This document shows positions 6,032 to 18,457 of a DNA stretch of 64,000 nt, one piece after another. A model generated the notes under the pieces. It was not told where the DNA came from. It ran no database searches and saw only the letters and a list, made by a program, of their open reading frames with translations. The DNA is from Blastococcus sp. CT_GayMR16 (GTDB lineage Bacteria > Actinomycetota > Actinomycetes > Mycobacteriales > Geodermatophilaceae), in NCBI RefSeq assembly GCF_004570875.1, contig NZ_SPQK01000013.1:62001-126000 (forward strand), in the 5' to 3' direction. Within the stretch, counting starts at the first letter, position 1; each line of letters starts with the position of its first letter. The translations under genes were made by a program, and so were the position numbers.

Positions 6032-6679
6032 GTGGACGAGGCCAAGCGGTTGCTGCTGGTCCGGAGCAGCGCGAAGGTTGCCAGCCGGGTCCTGGCCGAC
6101 CTCTGGCCTGATGGCCCCGATGGTGCGGTGCGCGGAACGGTCGACGCGTGGTTCTTCGAGGTGGAGGCCGAGCGTGACGGGGTGCGGGTCCGACGGACCG
6201 GAGACCTGCGGCGCGAGGGTGTCGTGTGGGACGTCCTCGACCTCGGTTCGAAGCTTCCTGGACCGCTGCCCGCTGGAGCGCGGCAGGTGTCGCCCGGTGT
6301 GGTCTCCGTCGAAGTGCAGCGGAGCTGGGTGCAGCGCGTGCTGCGGCCGTTGCGACGGAGCGAGTCCGAGCTGGAAGCGCTGTGTCGCCGCCTGAACGCC
6401 GTGGACCTGTGGGTTCTCGGCGACGTGGAGAGCGCGTGCCGGGTCTGCGGCTACGACGACGGCGACGAGCGGTTCATCGGTGGCGTGCCCCAGTACGTGA
6501 TCTGCCGGTGCTGCGACACCGAGTCGGGTGTGGACGACGTCAGCGCACAGCAGGTCGCTCGCGGCCGCCGCGAGTGGATCGAGCGCGGGCGCGCGTGGCG
6601 GCATCCCGAGGATCGTCCCGCAGGGTGGGATCCGGACCTCGCGATCGCCGCGCTGCCGAGCACGTGGCGCGACCTCTAG
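6032..6679 (+). CDS. Hypothetical protein with C-terminal zinc ribbon
   Basis: I do not recognise a named family. The 215-residue protein has a charged N-terminal region and two CxxC pairs, CRVC and CRCC, separated by about 18 residues, which look like a zinc ribbon. They are followed by GRREWIERGRAWRHP, a W-rich tail seen after zinc ribbons in small actinobacterial proteins. An upstream GTG at 5993 is in frame, but the GTG at 6032 has a GAGAGGG ribosome site at a good distance (6018-6024), so I prefer it. It stands alone, convergent with the TipAL-type regulator (19 bases between stops). No signal peptide or membrane segment is seen. Confidence 0.7.
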   Translation: MDEAKRLLLVRSSAKVASRVLADLWPDGPDGAVRGTVDAWFFEVEAERDGVRVRRTGDLRREGVVWDVLDLGSKLPGPLPAGARQVSPGVVSVEVQRSWVQRVLRPLRRSESELEALCRRLNAVDLWVLGDVESACRVCGYDDGDERFIGGVPQYVICRCCDTESGVDDVSAQQVARGRREWIERGRAWRHPEDRPAGWDPDLAIAALPSTWRDL

Positions 6680-6698
6680 CACCCGCAGGGACGCCGGA

Positions 6699-7451
6699 TC
6701 AGCCCTGGCGGGCTGCGTTGGCCTGGACGGCGGTGCTCACGTACTGCGCCAGACCGGGCGCTATCTCTTCGTAGTGCGCGGTGAACCGCTCGTCCTCGAC
6801 GTACATCCGGCCGAGCCCGGCGTGCATCTCGGCCGGGCAGTCGTAGAAGTTCCGGCAGATCTGCTGCCGGTGCTCCTCCGCGACGTCCATCGCGCGGTCG
6901 GAATCCGCCGGGACGCCGTCCGTCATCGCGGCGGCGAACCGGGCTTCGATGTCGGCGCCCTCGGCCTTGATTCGCACCCAGTCGTCCTTCGTGTACGCGG
7001 CGGTCTTCCGCTTCGACTGGGCGTAGGCGTCGGTCTCGCCCCAGCGCTCCTCGACCTCGGCCTCGTACTGCGCCGGGTCGTGCTCGCCGAACACCTCGAA
7101 CCGCTCCTCCGGGGTCAGTGAGATCCCCATGCTGCGTGCCTCCATCTCCTTCTCGACGGCCGCGACCATGGCCTGGGTGCGCTCGAGCCGGGCCCGCAGC
7201 AGTCGGTGCTGGCGGCGCAGATGCGCCTCGGGGTCGGCATCAGGCGCGTCCAGCAGGGTCGCGACCTCCTCGAGGGGGAACCCGAGCTCGCGGTACAGCA
7301 AGACCTGGTGCAGCCGGTCCAGATCGGCCGGCGCGTACTGCCGGTAGCCGGCCGCCGTCCGTCCGGACGGCGACAGCAGCCCGATCCGGTCGTAGTGGTG
7401 CAGCGTGCGCACCGTGACGCCGGCCAGCGCCGCGACCTCACCCACGTTCAC
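6699..7451 (-). CDS. MerR-family regulator with TipAS-like drug-sensing domain
   Basis: A 250-residue TipAL-type activator. Residues 1-70 form the MerR winged helix (VTVRTLHHYDRIGLLSP), a long coiled helix follows to about residue 110, and the C-terminal part matches the TipAS globin-like domain that binds thiopeptide antibiotics in Streptomyces TipAL. MerR activators act on promoters with over-long 19-bp spacers, and such a promoter is directly upstream (7481-7511). The GTG at 7451 is supported by GGGAGGAA 5-6 bases upstream. The ligand is unknown. Confidence 0.92.
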   Translation of the reverse strand: MNVGEVAALAGVTVRTLHHYDRIGLLSPSGRTAAGYRQYAPADLDRLHQVLLYRELGFPLEEVATLLDAPDADPEAHLRRQHRLLRARLERTQAMVAAVEKEMEARSMGISLTPEERFEVFGEHDPAQYEAEVEERWGETDAYAQSKRKTAAYTKDDWVRIKAEGADIEARFAAAMTDGVPADSDRAMDVAEEHRQQICRNFYDCPAEMHAGLGRMYVEDERFTAHYEEIAPGLAQYVSTAVQANAARQG

Positions 7452-7480
7452 GGGGTTCCTCCCTTCCGTTGACGGAGAGG

Positions 7481-7511
7481 AGATTGCAGCCTGACGCTAC
7501 GTCAGGGTCAA
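7481..7511 (-). promoter_or_regulatory. MerR-type promoter and operator, 19-bp spacer
   Basis: On the minus strand, -35 TTGACC (7506-7511) and -10 CAATCT (7481-7486) are separated by 19 bp. The spacer carries a perfect dyad CCTGACG-TAG-CGTCAGG (7490-7506). The over-long spacer with a centred dyad is the hallmark of MerR-family target promoters, implying autoregulation of the TipAL-type gene 30 bp downstream. Confidence 0.82.
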
Positions 7512-7522
7512 GGGCGATTTTC

Positions 7523-8122
7523 TCAGGCCGTGAGCAGCCGGATCGTCTCGAGGACTGCGATGACGGCGAACACCGAGAAGAGGATCGCGGCGACCAGCCG
7601 GATCAACCGGATGGGCAGCTTGTCCGCCAGCTTCCGGCCCAGGAAGACAGCGAGCCCGGAGACGACCAGCAGAGCGGCCCAGGAACCGATGAACACCGAC
7701 AGCGGGTCGTCGTAGCGGGCGGCGAGGCCGGCCGTGGCCAGCTGGGAGAGGTCACCCCACTCCGCGGCGAAGAGCACCCCGAAGGAGATGGCCGCCGCCT
7801 TGAGGAACGACGGGTCAGCGGGCGTCTCGTCGAGGTCGTCCTCCTCCTCGGCGCCGCTGCGGACGCTGCGCCACAGGATGACCGCGCCGACGACGAACAG
7901 CACCGCGACGATGCTGCTCACCACGGCGTCCGGCAGCAGTGTGAGCAGCGAGCCTGCGGTGACCGCGATCGCCACCTGCAGCCCGAATGCCGTCGCGACG
8001 CCGACGAACACGGGCAGCGGCCTGAACCGGGTGGCGAGCACGAGCGTGGCGAACAGCGTCTTGTCCGGCAGTTCCACAGGGAGCACCAGGATGAACGCGG
8101 CCGCGATGACCGACAGGACCAC
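7523..8122 (-). CDS. TMEM165/GDT1-family cation exporter (probable manganese exporter)
   Basis: A 199-residue, six-helix membrane protein with the duplicated GDT1 motif: VELPDKT in the first half (residues 16-22) and AEWGDLS in the second. The acidic residues of these E-x-G-D-(K/R/L)-(T/S) motifs bind the cation. Bacterial members export Mn2+. The call is strengthened by the yybP-ykoY riboswitch in its leader. I place the start at the GTG at 8122, with AGAGGA 6-9 bases upstream; the longer open frame runs into the riboswitch. The central acidic loop (EEEDDLDE) is normal for the family. Confidence 0.9.
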   Translation of the reverse strand: MVLSVIAAAFILVLPVELPDKTLFATLVLATRFRPLPVFVGVATAFGLQVAIAVTAGSLLTLLPDAVVSSIVAVLFVVGAVILWRSVRSGAEEEDDLDETPADPSFLKAAAISFGVLFAAEWGDLSQLATAGLAARYDDPLSVFIGSWAALLVVSGLAVFLGRKLADKLPIRLIRLVAAILFSVFAVIAVLETIRLLTA

Positions 8123-8190
8123 AGGATTCCTCTTCCACTCGGCAGTGCCGGGCGGGTGCGGGCAGCCTCCGACCGGCAGCGCAGGCTGCA

Positions 8191-8296
8191 TCAGTCGAAG
8201 GTCTCGCCCATCCACGCCGAGGCGTGGACCCGCTGACCGGGCGGCCGGTGAAGGCGCGCCAGCATGTCGACCAGCGGACGGGGGGCTACTCCCCTT
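8191..8296 (-). ncRNA. yybP-ykoY manganese riboswitch
   Basis: Read on the minus strand, the element begins AAGGGGAGTAGC (8285-8296), contains GTCGACATGCTGGCG and CGCCCGGTCAGCGGG, and closes with GGGCGAGACCTTCGAC (to about 8193). These are the conserved blocks of the yybP-ykoY class, which binds Mn2+ between two docked loops. It precedes the GDT1 exporter by about 70 bases. That interval has a GCAGCCT/AGGCTGC hairpin that could be the expression platform. Confidence 0.93.
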
Positions 8297-8356
8297 CGTC
8301 GGCGAGAGTAGCCGACGGCGCTGTGCAAACGCGGTGCGGGCGGCGGTGATCCCGGC

Positions 8357-11558: not shown

Positions 11559-12767
11559 TCAGCCCGCGCGGTGGGCGTGCTCCGCTGCGGCCGTGGCGGC
11601 CCGCAGCACCTCCTTGACCGGCAGGCCCAGCTCGCGCGCGAGCTGGGCGACGTCCTCGTACTCCACGCTGACGTTGACCACCCGGCCGTCGTGGACGGCG
11701 ACCTTCACGCCCACCCGCCCGCCGAGCACGGCGACCGAGGCCGACGTCCGCTCCAGGGCGGTCTTGCCCACCGGCACGATGCGCATCCCGATGGTCGACG
11801 TCGTCGCGAACATCGCCGCCTGGACGGCGGGCACCGCCTCCGGCCGGCACAGCGCGGACAGCGTGTGCGCCGGACGGCCCTTCTTCATCAGGATCGGGGT
11901 CAGCCAGGCGTCGGAGGCGCCGGCGGCGAACAGCGCGTCGAGGACGCCGGGCCACAGCCGCGGGTCCAGGTCGTCGACATTGGTCTCCAGAACGACAGGG
12001 CTCTCCAGGACGACAGGGCTCTGGAGGACGACGGGGCCGGGCGTGCTCGGCTCGTCGGCCGAACCCAGCACCAACCGGACGACGTTCGGCAGCTCGGCCG
12101 GGTCACGCCCACCGGCGCCCACGCCCACGCGGTCGACCCGCATCGGCGGCAGCGTCGTCCACTCGTCCACGAGGTGCGCCACGAGCGCGGCGCCGGTGGG
12201 GGTGCACATCTCGGCGGGCACGGCCCCCGCGACGACGGGGATGCCGCGCAGCAGCTCGAGGACGGCCGGCCCGGGGATCGGGACGACGCCGTGGGCGCTG
12301 CGGGCCGAGCCGCTGCCGAGCGCGACCGGCGAGGCGAACAGCCGGGTAAGGCCCAGGTGCTCGATGCCGGCGACCACCCCGACGACGTCCGCCAGTGCGT
12401 CCAGCGCGCCCACCTCGTGGAAGTGCACCTCGTCGGGGGAGATGCGGTGCACGCGGCCCTCGGCGACGGCCAGCCGCTCGAACACCGCCTGGGCACCCTC
12501 GCGCACGGAGGAGGGCAGGTCGGCGTCCACGAGCAGCGCGCGGACGTCGGGCCAGGTGCGGTGGTGCGGGGAGTCAGCTGTGTGCACGTGCACTCGGGTC
12601 GCGCCGAGGCCGTGCCGGGTGACCTGCTCGGTCTCCAGCCGGATGGCCTCGACGGGCAGCGCGGCGACGGCGGCGGCGAGGACGTCGAGGGGCACCCCGG
12701 CATCGACGAGCGCGCCCAGCAGCATGTCGCCGGAAGCCCCCGCCGAGAGGTCGAGCCAGCCGATCAT
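11559..12767 (-). CDS. larC: LarC, nickel insertion protein for the nickel-pincer nucleotide cofactor
   Basis: LarC inserts Ni into the thiocarboxylated pyridinium mononucleotide in a CTP-dependent step, completing the NPN cofactor of lactate racemase and related enzymes. The 402-residue protein begins WLDLSAGASGDMLLGALVDAG, has the HFHEVGALDALADVVG block near residue 120, and TPTGAALVAHL near residue 190, all family signatures, and is full length without a frameshift. The start is ATG 12767. Upstream on the same strand is the GGDEF-LarB fusion, separated by a structured repeat (12797-12878). LarE and LarA are not in the window. Confidence 0.95.
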   Translation of the reverse strand: MIGWLDLSAGASGDMLLGALVDAGVPLDVLAAAVAALPVEAIRLETEQVTRHGLGATRVHVHTADSPHHRTWPDVRALLVDADLPSSVREGAQAVFERLAVAEGRVHRISPDEVHFHEVGALDALADVVGVVAGIEHLGLTRLFASPVALGSGSARSAHGVVPIPGPAVLELLRGIPVVAGAVPAEMCTPTGAALVAHLVDEWTTLPPMRVDRVGVGAGGRDPAELPNVVRLVLGSADEPSTPGPVVLQSPVVLESPVVLETNVDDLDPRLWPGVLDALFAAGASDAWLTPILMKKGRPAHTLSALCRPEAVPAVQAAMFATTSTIGMRIVPVGKTALERTSASVAVLGGRVGVKVAVHDGRVVNVSVEYEDVAQLARELGLPVKEVLRAATAAAEHAHRAG

Positions 12768-12889: not shown

Positions 12890-15688
12890 TCAGCCGCGGG
12901 CGCTTCGCCTTGCCACGCGGGCGGCGAAGACCCCGGCGCTGTAACCGTTGTCGATGTTGCTGACGACGACGCCGGGCGCCGCCGAGTTGAGCATCGTCAT
13001 CAGTGCGCCGAGGCCGCCGAACGCGCTGGGCTGGCCGGTCGAGGTCGGCACCGCGACCACCGGGACGTCGGTCATCGCGCCGATCATCGTGGCGAGCGAG
13101 GCGTCCAGGCCGGCGACGACCACCAGGCAGTCGACGTCGCCCAGCAGGGTGCCGTCGGCGAGCAGGCCGCGGATCCGGCTGCCGCCGATGTCGTCCACCC
13201 GGGCCACCTCGGTGCCGGTCACCCGGGCGACGAACGCGGCCTCGGCGGCGACCGGGGTGTCGCCGCCACCGGCGCAGAGCACGCGGACGCGCCCCACCGG
13301 GTCGGGCACCGGGCCGACGGCGGCGGCCATCGCGGCGGCGTCCATGGTCGTGTACGCGTCGTGCTCGCTGGCCAGCGCGACGAGGGTCTCGGCCGACGCA
13401 CGCAGCACCAGGGCCGGACGGTCGGGGTGCTCGCGCCGGGCCTCGCGGACGAGGGCGAGGATCTGCTCGGTGCTGCGGCCGGTGCCCCAGATGACCTCGG
13501 GCTCGACTGAGCCGACCGGTGCGATCGCGATGGGCATCGGCTCGGTCGCGTCGAGGACCGGGCCCAGCAGCGGCTCGGCGGCGCTCCCGAGACCGAGGGG
13601 AGGATCGGGCTCGACCAGGAGCGGGGCGAAACCACCGGCCTCGTCGGACGAGGCGGTGTCGTCGTCCGGCGGGGAAGGCTGCACGGTCGCGACGGTAGCC
13701 GCGGCCTCGTCGTCCTCCGGGGAGTCCGACGTGGTCGCGTCGGGGGCGTCGGCGTCCGACGGCGGTGGGCCGAACAGGGCGTCCAGGGGACTCGTGCCGG
13801 GTGCCCTCGTCTGTGTCACACCCGACAGTCGCACGACGCGGTCGCGGCCACTGCGCTTGGCGTCGTACAACACGCCGTCGGCCGCTGCGAACAGCGTCCG
13901 CCGGTCGTCGCCGCGAGCCGCCGAGGCGATGCCCACGCTGATCGTCACGGGGACGGTGAGCCCGAACTCCGACCAGTCGTAGGTCGCGACCTTGCGGCGG
14001 GTGCGCTCCAGGGCCCGCTCGGCCTGCTCGGCCGTGGTGTCGGGCAGCAGGATCACGTACTCGTCGCCGGCCCAGCGGCAGACCTCGTCGGTGTCGCGGA
14101 CGCCGGCGATGAGCAGTTCGGCGACCGTGCGCAGCACCGAGTCACCGCCCGGGTGGCCGATCGCGTCGTTGATCGACTTGAACCGGTCCACGTCGACGAC
14201 GGCCAGCGCCGGTGCCGCGCCGGCCGACAGCAGGCCGTCCAGGCGGGCCTCGGCGTAGCGCCGGTTGGGCAGGTGGGTGAGCGGGTCCTCGTAGGCCTGG
14301 CGGCGCAGCTGACCGGCGGCCCGCTCGGTCTCCAGCAGGCTCTTGCGGCGGCCGAACAGCTCGACCCAGCGGGTGCGCCGCTCGTCGACCCGGTCCAACT
14401 CGTCGGAGAGGTAGGCCTGCAGGTAGGGGAGCGCGCTCCCGGCGTCGTCGAGCTCGGCGTGCAGGGTGCACAGCTCCCGCAGCGCGGCGCGGCGCAGCCG
14501 CGGCAGGCCGTGCTCGGTGGCCAGGGTGAGCGCGGAGACCAGGTGCTCGTCGGCGGCCGTGCCGTCGCCCTGCCGGCGCAGCGCGCGACCCAGCGCCAGC
14601 TGCGCCGAGGCCAGCTGCGCGCGATCGGCGGTGGCGGAGGTGATCCGGACGGCAGCCCGCAGGGGGCCGATCGCGGCCGCGTGCTCGCCGAGGCCGACCA
14701 GCGCCCACCCGTGGACGACCTGCGCGGTCACGACGCCCGAGGACTCCGGCGGCAGCAGCGCCAGGGCCTCCTCGGCGAACCGGCGGGCGTCGGCGAAGTA
14801 GGGGGCGGCGGACTCCGGGACGCCGTCGTCGAGCAGTCCCTCCCCGAGTTCGGCGCAGAGCTCCCCGAGGCAGGTGGCGGTCGACGCGACCAGCACGTCG
14901 GGATCGCCGTCGTCGGGGCCGAGCGAGCCGGGATCAGCGGCGGCGGCCGTCGCCGACTCGTGGGCGCGGCGCTGGTAGTCCAGCGCCAGCGGCATGAGCT
15001 CGAGGTCGGCGAGGACGCCGGAGAGCGTGCCGAGGGTGTCGATGAGCAGCGCGCTGGGGGCGAGCAACGGGTCGAGCAGGCTGGCGGCCTCGACCGCCTC
15101 GTCCATCGCCGCGTCGATCCGGCGGGAGAGCAGCTCGATACGGGCGTGCCGGGCCAGCCCGGCGGCGCGCTGCAGGTCGTCGTCGCTCGCGTCGAAGGCG
15201 GCCTTGGCCGAGCGGACCAGCGCGATGGCGAGGGCCGCCCGCGACGCGGACTCCGAGCGCGGGTCGGTCTCGTCACCGGATCCGTCGATCAGCTCGGCCA
15301 CCCCGGCGTGCAGGTCGAGGGCAGGCTCGGTCGAGGCGTCCGCGGTCACCGGATCGCCGACGAGGGTGAAGCCGGCGACGCGCAATCGCCGCACCAGGAG
15401 CTCGGCACGCAGGGTGTCGGCCCAGGCCTTGCCGAGGGAGACGGGGGCGCCGTCGGGCGCGTCGGCGGCCGGATCGGCGGCGACGTAAGGAGAGGGATCC
15501 CGATCGACGCCGGCGAGCAGTTCCTCGGCATCGTCGAGCTGCCAGTTCGCCAGGGCCGCGGTCACCCGATGGTGCAGGGCTCCGGGTGGCACGAGCGCAC
15601 TGTGCACGTCGTCCCCTGCACTGTCGAGCACGTCATCGGGAACGCGCCGTCCCCCGTCCCATACGTCCCACGCGTCCGAGGAACTCAC
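12890..15688 (-). CDS. TPR-like + GGDEF diguanylate cyclase fused to a LarB-like domain
   Basis: One uninterrupted 932-residue frame. Residues about 40-460 are helical and TPR-like. About 465-625 form a GGDEF domain with active-site variant AGDEY (540-544) and an RxxD I-site (RDTD) five residues before it. About 626-728 is a Pro/Asp/Ser-rich linker. About 729-932 match LarB, the NaAD carboxylase of nickel-pincer cofactor synthesis: EVIWGTGRSTEQI, a VPTSTGQPSAFGGLGAL block and MLNSAAPGVVVSNIDNG. In usual LarB the last motif is LNSC..NIDNG; the Cys is Ala here, and the AGTSD loop is changed to AGGGD. No good internal start precedes the LarB part. GTG 15688 overlaps the upstream cyclase stop as GTGA. 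Confidence 0.88.
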   Translation of the reverse strand: MSSSDAWDVWDGGRRVPDDVLDSAGDDVHSALVPPGALHHRVTAALANWQLDDAEELLAGVDRDPSPYVAADPAADAPDGAPVSLGKAWADTLRAELLVRRLRVAGFTLVGDPVTADASTEPALDLHAGVAELIDGSGDETDPRSESASRAALAIALVRSAKAAFDASDDDLQRAAGLARHARIELLSRRIDAAMDEAVEAASLLDPLLAPSALLIDTLGTLSGVLADLELMPLALDYQRRAHESATAAAADPGSLGPDDGDPDVLVASTATCLGELCAELGEGLLDDGVPESAAPYFADARRFAEEALALLPPESSGVVTAQVVHGWALVGLGEHAAAIGPLRAAVRITSATADRAQLASAQLALGRALRRQGDGTAADEHLVSALTLATEHGLPRLRRAALRELCTLHAELDDAGSALPYLQAYLSDELDRVDERRTRWVELFGRRKSLLETERAAGQLRRQAYEDPLTHLPNRRYAEARLDGLLSAGAAPALAVVDVDRFKSINDAIGHPGGDSVLRTVAELLIAGVRDTDEVCRWAGDEYVILLPDTTAEQAERALERTRRKVATYDWSEFGLTVPVTISVGIASAARGDDRRTLFAAADGVLYDAKRSGRDRVVRLSGVTQTRAPGTSPLDALFGPPPSDADAPDATTSDSPEDDEAAATVATVQPSPPDDDTASSDEAGGFAPLLVEPDPPLGLGSAAEPLLGPVLDATEPMPIAIAPVGSVEPEVIWGTGRSTEQILALVREARREHPDRPALVLRASAETLVALASEHDAYTTMDAAAMAAAVGPVPDPVGRVRVLCAGGGDTPVAAEAAFVARVTGTEVARVDDIGGSRIRGLLADGTLLGDVDCLVVVAGLDASLATMIGAMTDVPVVAVPTSTGQPSAFGGLGALMTMLNSAAPGVVVSNIDNGYSAGVFAARVARRSARG

Positions 15689-17388
15689 GCGTCGGCCTTG
15701 CCGGGTGTGCCGTCGTCCCCGGTTTCGTCACCCTCGGGTTCCGCACCGGATGCGGTGCCCGGGGCGCGGACCCGGTTGCGGCCGCCGCGCTTGGCGGAGA
15801 ACAGGTGGAGGTCGGCGGTGTCGAACAGCGTCCGCCAGCCCACGCTGACGGAGTCGCCGTCGACGGCGGGCGCGGTGGCCACGCCGACGCTGACGGTCAC
15901 CGGCTCGCGGACCTCGAGGTCGGTCCAGTCGGCCGCGGCCACGGCGGAGCGCAGGCGCTCCATCACCACGACGGCCTGGGCCTGCGTGGCCGTCGGAAGG
16001 ACGACGAGGAACTCGTCCCCGGCCCAGCGGTAGACCTCGTCGCCGTTGCGGCTGTGCTCGCGCAGCAGGTCGGCGACCCGGCGGAGGACGGCGTCCCCGT
16101 GCGTGTGCGACGCGCCGTCGTTGACCTCCTTGAAGCGGTCGACGTCGACGACGGCCAGCGACAGCGGCTCCTCGCCCAGGCGCATCGCACCGAGCCTGCG
16201 CTCGGCACTGCGGCGGTTGCCGAGCCCGGTCAGGGGGTCCTCCAGCGCGTGCCGGCGCAACAGCACCGCCTGACGCTCGGCCTCGCGCAGGCGGCTGCGC
16301 TGCACGAACATGTCCGCCCACATCTCCCGGCTGCGGGTGTGCGCGCGGCCGGTGTCGGAGCGGTAGGCCTCCAGCCAGTGCAGCGCCTCCGCGGGGCGGC
16401 CCAGGTCCGCCGCGTGCTGGCCCAGCTCGAGCAGGCACTGCCGGTAGCGGCGGCGGTCGCCCGCGGCGGCGAAGGCACCCGCGGCGTCCACGAGCAGCTC
16501 GATCGCCTCGTCGCCGCTCTCGACGTCGTCGTCTCGTTCGTGCACCCGGACGAGCAGGCGGGCGAGCGCCAGGCCGGTGTAGCCGCGCAGCCAGAGACCG
16601 CCCTCGGCCTCCACCCGGCGCCGGACGCGGCGCAGCGGGCCGAGCGCGCCGTCCAGGTCGTCGGCGCAGGTCAGGGCCCACGCCTGGACGACGTCGAGCA
16701 GGTCGCTCTCGTCCGGTTCGGGCTCCCAGTCCAGGTCGCGGGCGGCGACGGCGCCGGCGATGGCCTCGACGGCGAGCTCCCGGGAGCGGTCGAGGTCGCC
16801 GCGGCGGCGCAGCGTCTGGGCCAGTTCGGTGTGCTGCTGGGCCGACAGCAGCCGCAGCCGCCACTGGTCGGCCGGCTCGCGCAGGGCGGCGGCGACGTGC
16901 TGGCCGCGCATCGCGTGCGAGACCGCGGGCTCTTCCAGGTCCAGGCCGGAGAGGGTCAGCGACAGCCAGCGGTGCGCCTGCAGCAGCGCACGGGACGGCT
17001 CGCCGGCCGCCTTCCCGTCGGTGAGCAGGCTGGCGTCGACGGCGAGCAGCATGGCGGCGTCGAAGTGGTCGGCGAGCACCTCGACGTGGGCCAGGAAGGC
17101 CATGACCAGGGCGGTGTCGGCCGAGGGCAGGCACTTGTCGAGGGCCTCCCGGGCGGCCGCGACGTCGACCACGGCGGCGTCCGGGTCGTTCTCGATGAGA
17201 GCGCGGCGGGCGGTCAGCGCGTGTCGCCAGGCGATCCACTGGGGCTCGCTGCTCTCGGTGAGCGTGTCGCCGGCCTCGTCCAGCAGGGCGATGAATGCGG
17301 TGGCGTCCTCGCGGGCGCTCGCCGTCAGGAGACGCCACAGGACGGCGAAGAGGTCGCCGGGAGCGACGCGTGCCGGGCGGGGGCTCAC
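15685..17388 (-). CDS. TPR-like + GGDEF diguanylate cyclase
   Basis: A 567-residue soluble protein. Residues 1-370 are helical and TPR-like (for example RRRGDLDRSRELAVEAIAGA). About 380-550 is a GGDEF domain: DPLTGLGNRR opening, VVDVDRFKEVND metal/substrate segment, active-site variant AGDEF at 456-460, and an RNGD I-site five residues upstream, implying product inhibition. It should make c-di-GMP from GTP if the A-G-D-E-F form is active, as in some known cyclases. GTG 17388 is chosen over the upstream in-frame GTG because GGGAGG lies 3-8 bases before it. It is co-translated with the GGDEF-LarB gene. Confidence 0.9.
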   Translation of the reverse strand: MSPRPARVAPGDLFAVLWRLLTASAREDATAFIALLDEAGDTLTESSEPQWIAWRHALTARRALIENDPDAAVVDVAAAREALDKCLPSADTALVMAFLAHVEVLADHFDAAMLLAVDASLLTDGKAAGEPSRALLQAHRWLSLTLSGLDLEEPAVSHAMRGQHVAAALREPADQWRLRLLSAQQHTELAQTLRRRGDLDRSRELAVEAIAGAVAARDLDWEPEPDESDLLDVVQAWALTCADDLDGALGPLRRVRRRVEAEGGLWLRGYTGLALARLLVRVHERDDDVESGDEAIELLVDAAGAFAAAGDRRRYRQCLLELGQHAADLGRPAEALHWLEAYRSDTGRAHTRSREMWADMFVQRSRLREAERQAVLLRRHALEDPLTGLGNRRSAERRLGAMRLGEEPLSLAVVDVDRFKEVNDGASHTHGDAVLRRVADLLREHSRNGDEVYRWAGDEFLVVLPTATQAQAVVVMERLRSAVAAADWTDLEVREPVTVSVGVATAPAVDGDSVSVGWRTLFDTADLHLFSAKRGGRNRVRAPGTASGAEPEGDETGDDGTPGKADA

Positions 17389-17491
17389 GTGCCTCCCTTC
17401 ACTTCCGGATGGACCGGCCCGTGCGGGCCGGAGCTGCCAGTAGTCGAGGCAGCTTCCCCCGGGTGAGGCACCTGGCCCCACCCGCCCGCAC

Positions 17492-17503: not shown

Positions 17504-18457
17504 ATGCCCGGGATGCCCCCCAGTACGTCTCCGACGCGGTTCGCCTATCTCGGGCCCGAGGGTACCTTCGCCGAGGCGGCGCTCCTCAGTGCAGTTGCCT
17601 CCTCGGAGGGAGCCCGGTACCCCCAGCCGAGTGTTCCTGCGGCACTGGCCGCCGTTCGATCGGGTGACGCCGACGCCGCGCTGGTCCCGCTGGAGAACTC
17701 CGTCGAGGGTTCGGTGCCCGCCACGATGGACGGTCTGGCCGACGGCGACCCCCTCGTGATCACCCGCGAGGTCTTCCTGCACGTGGAGTTCGCCCTCGCC
17801 GTCCGGCCCGGTACCGAGCTCGCCGACATCCGCTCGGTGGCCAGTCATCCGCACGCCCTCGCCCAGACCGCCGGCCGGCTCGCCGAGCTCCTTCCCGGCG
17901 TGAGCCCGCTGCCGCTCACGTCGACCGCGGTGGCCGCCGAGGCCGTGGCGGCGGGGACGTACGACGCGGCCGTCTGCGCCCCGATCGCCGCCGAACGCTA
18001 CGGCCTGGTGTCACTGGTCGGCGACCTGGCCGACCGTCCCGGGGCGGTCACCCGGTTTGTCCTGGTCAGCCCGCCGGGGCAGCCCACCGCACCGACCGGC
18101 AACGACAAGACCTCCCTGGTGGCCGTCGTCGGCGATCGCACCGGCGCGCTGCTCGAGCTGCTCCGGGAGTTCGCCGTCCGGGAGATCTCCCTGACCCGCA
18201 TCGAGTCACGCCCCACCCGCGAGCGGCTCGGCGTCTACTCCTTCTCCCTCGACTGCGAGGGCCACATCGCCGACCGGCGGGTGGGGGAGGCGCTGGCGGC
18301 CCTGCACCGGGTCTGCGACGACGTCCGCTTCCTCGGTTCGTACCCGCGGGCCGACGGTCGGGACAACAGGCCGGTCCCGGAGATGGCCGGCGACGAGGCG
18401 TTCGCCGAGGCCGCGTCCTGGCTGGAGAACATCCGCACGGGCCGCACGACGAGCTGA
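17504..18457 (+). CDS. pheA: Prephenate dehydratase
   Basis: Converts prephenate to phenylpyruvate in phenylalanine synthesis. The 317-residue protein has the catalytic PDT domain (FAYLGPEGTFAEAAL at 13-27, VPLENSVEGSV, and the conserved Thr-Arg-Phe in AVTRFVLVS near residue 185). It is followed by a regulatory ACT domain (LLELLREFAVREISLTRIESRPT) where phenylalanine binds. This is the monofunctional actinobacterial form without chorismate mutase. The start at 17504 is supported by the leaderless -10; a second ATG lies 9 bases on. It ends at a long hairpin shared with the MMPL gene. Confidence 0.97.
   Translation: MPGMPPSTSPTRFAYLGPEGTFAEAALLSAVASSEGARYPQPSVPAALAAVRSGDADAALVPLENSVEGSVPATMDGLADGDPLVITREVFLHVEFALAVRPGTELADIRSVASHPHALAQTAGRLAELLPGVSPLPLTSTAVAAEAVAAGTYDAAVCAPIAAERYGLVSLVGDLADRPGAVTRFVLVSPPGQPTAPTGNDKTSLVAVVGDRTGALLELLREFAVREISLTRIESRPTRERLGVYSFSLDCEGHIADRRVGEALAALHRVCDDVRFLGSYPRADGRDNRPVPEMAGDEAFAEAASWLENIRTGRTTS

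Follow-up and report, generated by a model that had tools for sequence, protein, structure and literature searches.

What does a diguanylate cyclase do with a domain resembling LarB, an enzyme of nickel-pincer cofactor (NPN) synthesis? This question is raised by a gene of Blastococcus sp. CT_GayMR16 (Geodermatophilaceae, whose members live in soil and on rock), located at 12890..15688 on the minus strand of a 64,000 nucleotide stretch of contig NZ_SPQK01000013.1 (the window). With a GTG start at 15688 and the stop at 12890, it encodes a protein of 932 amino acids. An earlier note, made from the sequence alone, had read this frame of 932 codons as the fusion of a TPR-like region and a GGDEF domain to a LarB-like domain by way of a linker, and matches to Pfam, NCBIfam, and PDB entries bore this out. 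We consider it likely that the gene encodes a working cyclase with a repurposed LarB pseudoenzyme as a regulatory module.

Results

The LarB-Like Domain Keeps the Fold of LarB and Lacks Its Catalytic Cysteine

The LarB-like domain comprises residues ~728–930 (12899..13507, minus strand; all residue numbers are those of the window's fusion protein) and was recognized by profile, structure, and alignment matches. Pfam AIRC matched residues 852–926 (E 4.5e-9), and the domain matched the LarB of PDB entry 7mj0 with an E value of 6.1e-35. The NCBIfam LarB model NF033503 matched residues 730–927 with 163.1 bits for the whole protein and 167.3 bits for the domain, below its curated cut-off of 175; two fused relatives (G110 and G113) exceeded this cut-off with 177–179 bits. 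An AlphaFold2 (AF2) model of the domain, based on a 48-row alignment that included real LarBs, reached a predicted local distance difference test (pLDDT) score of 90.2. The 27 best Foldseek matches were all LarB chains (TMq 0.77–0.84), which identified the LarB fold. In structural alignments the whole-domain fold was shared with real LarBs at 38–40% identity, and the AVPTS and (N)IDNG motifs of LarB were largely kept. The larC neighbor is also shared: larC (11559..12767, minus strand) lies downstream of the fusion gene. The earlier note had taken this gene on the same strand as a sign that the LarB identity is not a chance resemblance. LarC1 and LarC2 models matched in one frame at 12767-11559, and the kinship to LarB stands.

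The active site differs from that of LarB. Residue 903 aligns with C221 of the solved LarB 7mj0 and residue 809 with S127. C221, which we take to be the catalytic residue of LarB, was the only invariant Cys in nine unfused LarBs; the LarB Cys reportedly forms a cysteinyl-pyridine intermediate (Rankin et al. 2021). After removal of duplicates, we had 67 different fused copies, one from the window and the others from 66 loci, and compared them with 22 aligned unfused LarBs, 21 of them distinct. Position 903 was scorable in 66 of the fused copies; L085, which derives from a Blastococcus metagenome-assembled genome (MAG) and is the nearest carrier protein (99% identity across residues 161–620), ends before it. 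None of these 66 copies had Cys at position 903 (50 Ala, 8 Ser, 4 Thr, 2 Pro, 2 Gly), whereas Cys was present in all 22 unfused LarBs. The S127 equivalent was Gly or Ala in 65 of the 67 copies (35 Gly, 30 Ala, 1 Pro, 1 Val). S127 has been mutated by crystallographers (8soq, titled S127A variant), but it is the weaker marker, because the natural Cys-LarBs L024 and L104, which are identical, carry Ala there. H840 was changed or gapped in 59 of the 67 copies, with His in the other 8, and Y886 was changed in all of them. Other differences from LarB are the score below the curated cut-off and the fusion to a cyclase.

Among 73 positions that were near-invariant in the 22 unfused LarBs, 37 were retained by 90% or more of 26 fused domains, 17 by no more than 10%, and 19 lay in between. 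Residues kept in the pocket region include D810, T882, S883, D913, and G915. At several of the 17 lost positions a single new residue predominates (K738R and G863A in 26 of 26, G838R in 24, H840R in 20). The pattern is closer to remodelling than to plain decay. These findings suggest that the LarB domain is a non-catalytic pseudoenzyme that is unlikely to take part in NPN cofactor synthesis. One variant was seen in G017 (L015, 1501-2046), where the fused LarB is in frame and 18 residues short at ~832–849, the loop of H840/R841 in Cys-LarBs.

The Fusion Is Common in the Geodermatophilaceae

Our family sample comprised 112 genomes, taken as Geodermatophilaceae from the names of loci, and 103 of them carried the gene. 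In nine carriers (G006, G014, G042, G048, G059, G100, G101, G116, and G117), a contig end interrupts the gene inside a domain or between the two. GGDEF and LarB shared one frame in 92 of the 94 evaluable carriers, the window's genome and the single-contig genomes G017, G047, G049, and G072 included: 60 gave a single alignment through both domains, and 32 gave two pieces in the same open frame. Among the two-piece cases, the N-terminal part was on another contig in G115 and G118 and was shortened in G106. Only in G071 (L137) and G111 (L140) was the LarB part in another frame, and the shift was within the linker in both. In-frame stops were reported within eight in-frame carriers (seven alignments, one piece). 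The reported stop was the gene's own end in G008, G018, G022, G096, G102, and G103; an in-frame TAG lies at alignment position 457 in G009 (L008), between the TPR part and a GGDEF domain that shares its frame with LarB; G097 was checked via its named locus L098 only, which has both domains in one frame. The earlier note had pointed to a sequencing error that hides a stop, or to relatives with two separate proteins, as what could undo the fusion. Apart from the two linker frameshifts, the evaluable relatives were not split.

No fusion was found in nine of the 112 genomes (G020, G089, G090, G091 (genus g6), G092 (g28), G023, G093, G094, G095 (g9)), and five of these nine were less than 90% complete. 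The 76 named loci comprised 58 fused in frame, 5 of the fused type cut at the contig start, and 13 Cys-LarBs without an in-frame GGDEF. Those with a fused-type LarB were mostly labelled Blastococcus, Geodermatophilus, Modestobacter, Klenkia, or Goekera, with L060 ('Bacillus sp. AZ43') and L075 ('Frankiales bacterium') as exceptions. L060 (SPQJ01000021.1) is marked unverified; its fused LarB end is of the Geodermatophilaceae type (84% identity), as is its larC (81%), so the 'Bacillus' label is probably wrong.

We also looked outside the family. Of 394 genomes drawn from the class, 88 had a match, and two of the 88 were fused copies from the Geodermatophilaceae (G000 and G063). Fourteen stretches from the other class-wide matches, including all 12 with frames of more than 500 amino acids, showed no match to the family's GGDEF at E 1e-5. 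Of 396 genomes drawn across the phylum, 232 had a match, and among the matches listed no frame exceeded 681 amino acids, which is a weak result. Within these limits neither draw revealed a fusion outside the family, and a broader distribution was rejected.

The Fusion Probably Arose Once at a pheA-larB-larC Locus

In other actinobacteria, in G023, and at the MAG locus L119, the order is a divergent pheA, a Cys-LarB, and larC, without the family's GGDEF genes between them. G023 and L119 belong to the same family as the window. In the fused genomes L040-L043, pheA is followed by two TPR-GGDEF genes, and the second is fused to LarB; larC comes next in L040 and L041 and was not found nearby in L042 and L043. 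Within the window, the divergent gene at 17504..18457 (plus strand), which we take to be pheA from a reading of the protein and not from a family search, marks by its synteny the ancestral pheA/larB-larC site.

A LarB tree of 48 rows united its 26 fused domains in one clade (100/100) with a stem of 0.82 changes per column. This clade sits among LarBs of the pheA-larB-larC type, and four larE-linked LarBs formed a separate group (99/98). The branches that place the fused clade were only moderately supported (ultrafast bootstrap 88–94, SH-aLRT 54–89, none starred), so it is the synteny that carries the argument for its placement. We concluded that the computations support a single fusion event, probably to the native larB of the pheA-larB-larC locus.

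The Fused Domain Persists without the NPN Genes

The window's genome has a full larB/larC/larE set, with larC inside the window and a second, Cys-bearing larB beside larE. This Cys-larB (6344-7024, plus strand) is on contig C30 of the same genome (L031) and is convergent with larE (7015-8322, minus strand). No LarA (PF09861) match was found in the window's genome.

Unfused LarB was over the cut-off in 73 of the 112 genomes (75 exceeded it, with G110 and G113 being fused copies), LarE in 72, and LarC in 82. None of the 39 genomes without over-threshold unfused LarB had LarE over the cut-off; four of them (G101, G115, G116, and G118) were less than 90% complete. G120 had LarB, with LarE only as a fragment. 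LarC was missing in 30 genomes, 20 named directly and the other 10 by exclusion, namely in 29 of those 39 and in G020. The 29 genomes in which unfused larB, larE, and larC all went undetected were each at least 95% complete, and 27 of them carried the fusion in frame; it was frameshifted in G071 and cut by a contig end in G100.

The carrier-protein tree had 20 rows labelled NPN-less and 40 labelled NPN-bearing, and 7 of 67 were unlabelled; 5 of 57 loci without an unambiguous genome match were dropped from the labels. NPN-less here means without over-threshold unfused LarB and LarE, and some of these genomes retain LarC. The label changed 8 times by parsimony and at least 6 times by well-supported branches, and some of the changes could be regains. 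Computation thus supported that the fused domain is independent of the NPN genes.

LarA (Lar_N) was found in 35 of the 112 genomes, compared to 73 with unfused LarB, and in 2 of 16 within the window's genus. Because LarA is rarer than unfused LarB, this points to a putative user of the NPN cofactor other than LarA. Apart from its fusion locus, G072 has a compact larE-larA-larB-larC cluster (C1:1613559-1617659), and similar compact clusters occur in G064, G075, G076, G085, and G086 of genus g5. These clusters were possibly re-acquired by transfer.

The LarB-Like Domain Appears to Be under Constraint

We determined the ratio of nonsynonymous to synonymous differences (dN/dS) for the 14 closest pairs, defined by a synonymous difference of 0.02–0.15 over TPR and GGDEF; these pairs are not independent. 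They replaced an analysis of 2205 of 2211 pairs, in which the high GC content probably saturates dS. The ratio was 0.31 for the N-terminus, 0.20 for the TPR part, 0.047 for GGDEF, 0.61 for the linker, and 0.14 for LarB. As the value for LarB lies between those for GGDEF and the linker, its constraint is stronger than that of the linker and weaker than that of GGDEF. A wider cut-off of 0.02–0.22 (46 pairs) gave 0.23 for LarB. For closest pairs that lack the NPN genes, the LarB ratio was 0.068 (n = 2), too few to lean on.

The Cyclase Part Has Intact GGDEF Motifs

The GGDEF domain spans residues ~461–620 (13829..14308, minus strand), with the Pfam match at 465–617 (E 1.5e-36). The fusion protein passed PF00990 with 126 bits against a threshold of 23.8 and TIGR00254 with 124.7 against 37.4. 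AGDEY (540–544) and the I-site RDTD (R531xxD534) are present as first noted. The active-site xGDE(F/Y), the metal-binding Asp, the N-D motif, and the I-site RxxD of GGDEF domains are all present, and D499, D501, N507, D508, R531, D534, A540, G541, D542, and E543 were invariant in all 67 fused copies; position 544 was Phe in 62 and Tyr in 5. From these motifs we infer that the protein is a working diguanylate cyclase. An AGDEF site can be active, as reported for V. cholerae VCA0965 (PMC3974145). The fusion has in common with such cyclases AGDE(F/Y), the metal and GTP residues, and the I-site RxxD, and differs from them by its additional TPR-like N-terminus and LarB-derived C-terminal domain. 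The twin-motif anti-sigma factor RsiG, which binds cyclic di-GMP (c-di-GMP), is present in 16 of 16 Geodermatophilaceae species (PMC8325347), so the c-di-GMP signal is in use in this family.

The helical TPR-like region comprises residues ~161–441 (14366..15208, minus strand). TPR_MalT and TPR matches were weak and below the cut-off (TPR_MalT at 298–424 with 25.8 bits against the Pfam cut-off of 45), and AF2 predicted an all-helical structure with pLDDT by block of 66–94 over residues 211–430 and low values before 211. The variable Pro/Asp/Ala-rich linker (residues ~626–725; 13514..13813, minus strand) had a mean identity of 0.454 to 66 relatives and a pLDDT below 50. A full-length AlphaFold model from 13 sequences (mean pLDDT 58.5, predicted template modelling score 0.36) was too poor for the relative placement of the domains.

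Neighboring Genes

Upstream of the fusion gene lies a TPR-GGDEF paralogue without LarB (15685..17481, minus strand), which shares the TPR-like region and GGDEF with 40% identity over fusion residues 154–670, whereas LarB is found only in the fusion. Its TGA stop and the GTG start of the fusion gene share four bases (GTGA) in an operon-like overlap. This tandem paralogue (15685-17481) adjoins the fusion gene in relatives too. Because of the 4-base overlap and the gap of 122 bases between the fusion gene and larC, thus from spacing only, the paralogue, the fusion gene, and larC look like a single operon; a scan for promoters and terminators found nothing.

Discussion

We propose the following explanation. 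A TPR-GGDEF cyclase gene between pheA and the native larB-larC would have joined larB in a single in-frame fusion event at the base of the core Geodermatophilaceae. The LarB portion would then have lost its carboxylase active site and persisted in the cyclase as a domain without catalytic activity. The GGDEF domain would make c-di-GMP, with product inhibition via the I-site, and the LarB-derived domain on its long flexible linker would modulate the cyclase, while NPN synthesis, where present, would be handled by the separate LarB. The fusion, its single origin, the loss of catalytic residues, the retention and constraint of the domain, its independence of the NPN genes, and the intact GGDEF motifs are supported by computation. 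Enzymatic activity, regulation, and ligand we infer: the LarB part is probably regulatory, because its catalytic residue is lost and yet the domain is kept.

The LarB module may use its remodelled nucleotide pocket to bind a small ligand, or it may set the oligomeric state needed for GGDEF dimerisation. By our judgement, ligand binding is quite possible as one share within the proposed explanation. The earlier note had considered that the LarB fold might have been taken up as a sensor domain, and in its general form this idea is favored, with ligand binding being a prediction. Somewhat more doubtful, and a sub-case of the same explanation, is a ligand-free oligomerisation or scaffold module that pairs GGDEF domains. 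Catalysis by GGDEF domains requires their pairing, and members of the LarB/PurE superfamily assemble into multimers; both points, like the retained fold with its dismantled active site, would suit such a module. A pure scaffold might, however, not need the several pocket-motif residues that are conserved or have given way to a new fixed residue. As for the ligand, it is conceivable but rather unlikely that the LarB pseudoenzyme binds, but does not turn over, a pyridine nucleotide such as nicotinic acid adenine dinucleotide (NaAD) or NAD+ and thereby couples NAD-precursor status to c-di-GMP synthesis. To our knowledge, no pyridine-nucleotide input is known for diguanylate cyclases, although no search was aimed at it.

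Some observations weigh against a repurposed regulatory module. Two copies (G071 and G111) are frameshifted off the cyclase, the stop in G009 separates the TPR part from GGDEF, and the fused LarB of G017 (L015) lacks the 18 residues at ~832–849, so that parts may be dispensable in some strains. With the 0.02–0.22 cut-off, dN/dS of LarB was 0.27 in NPN-less pairs (n = 16) versus 0.19 in NPN-bearing pairs (n = 15), and it was ~0.4 at wider distances, where dS is probably saturated; the constraint is perhaps slightly looser where the pathway is missing. A LarB that works without the Cys is also conceivable. The frameshifts, the 18-residue loss, the slightly looser constraint, and the lost active site would fit an evolutionary leftover, with LarB as a tolerated, drifting tail without function. 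We regard this as improbable, since the ratio of 0.14 contrasts with 0.61 for the adjoining linker, 92 of 94 copies are in frame, and new residues have become fixed.

A bifunctional protein is still less probable. Here the LarB domain would act as NaAD carboxylase/hydrolase, and c-di-GMP or the state of the GGDEF domain would control NPN synthesis. The larC gene downstream, the LarB fold, and the retained part of the pocket (D810, T882, S883, D913, G915) are in favor of it. However, the catalytic Cys is absent from all 66 scorable copies, H840 is changed or gapped in 59 of 67 copies and Y886 changed in all 67, a separate Cys-LarB lies beside larE in the window's genome, and the fusion persists where larB, larE, and larC are missing. 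Gly, Ala, Pro, or Val at the S127 equivalent in all 67 copies also speaks against it, weakly in view of the Ala in L024/L104. An active bifunctional enzyme was rejected because of the lost Cys and the persistence without the pathway, and control of cofactor synthesis by c-di-GMP through an active LarB, which had been suggested earlier, is disfavored. An artefact that joined two genes, for which one could cite the 47 contigs of the window's 4.52 Mb assembly, was rejected as practically inconceivable and is refuted for the family because 92 of the 94 carriers that could be evaluated, among them single-contig genomes, have both domains in one frame.

The fusion protein is a diguanylate cyclase with an apparently undescribed enzyme-derived accessory domain. 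In the open-licence literature searched, which leaves most subscription journals outside, we found no paper combining LarB with GGDEF, or any two of GGDEF, AIR carboxylase, and nickel pincer, in line with the earlier note, to which no described GGDEF-LarB protein was known; the architecture may stand in domain databases without comment. The input domains of diguanylate cyclases are known to be diverse, but we came across no account of a former cofactor-synthesis enzyme in this role. For annotation, a fused 'LarB' should not count as evidence of cofactor synthesis. The Geodermatophilaceae offer an unusually clean case: relatives still show the gene order from before the fusion, the fused domains group in a single clade, the active site has been lost, and several lineages that retain the fused domain lack the NPN genes. 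They thereby provide a testable system for a metabolic enzyme turning into a signalling part.

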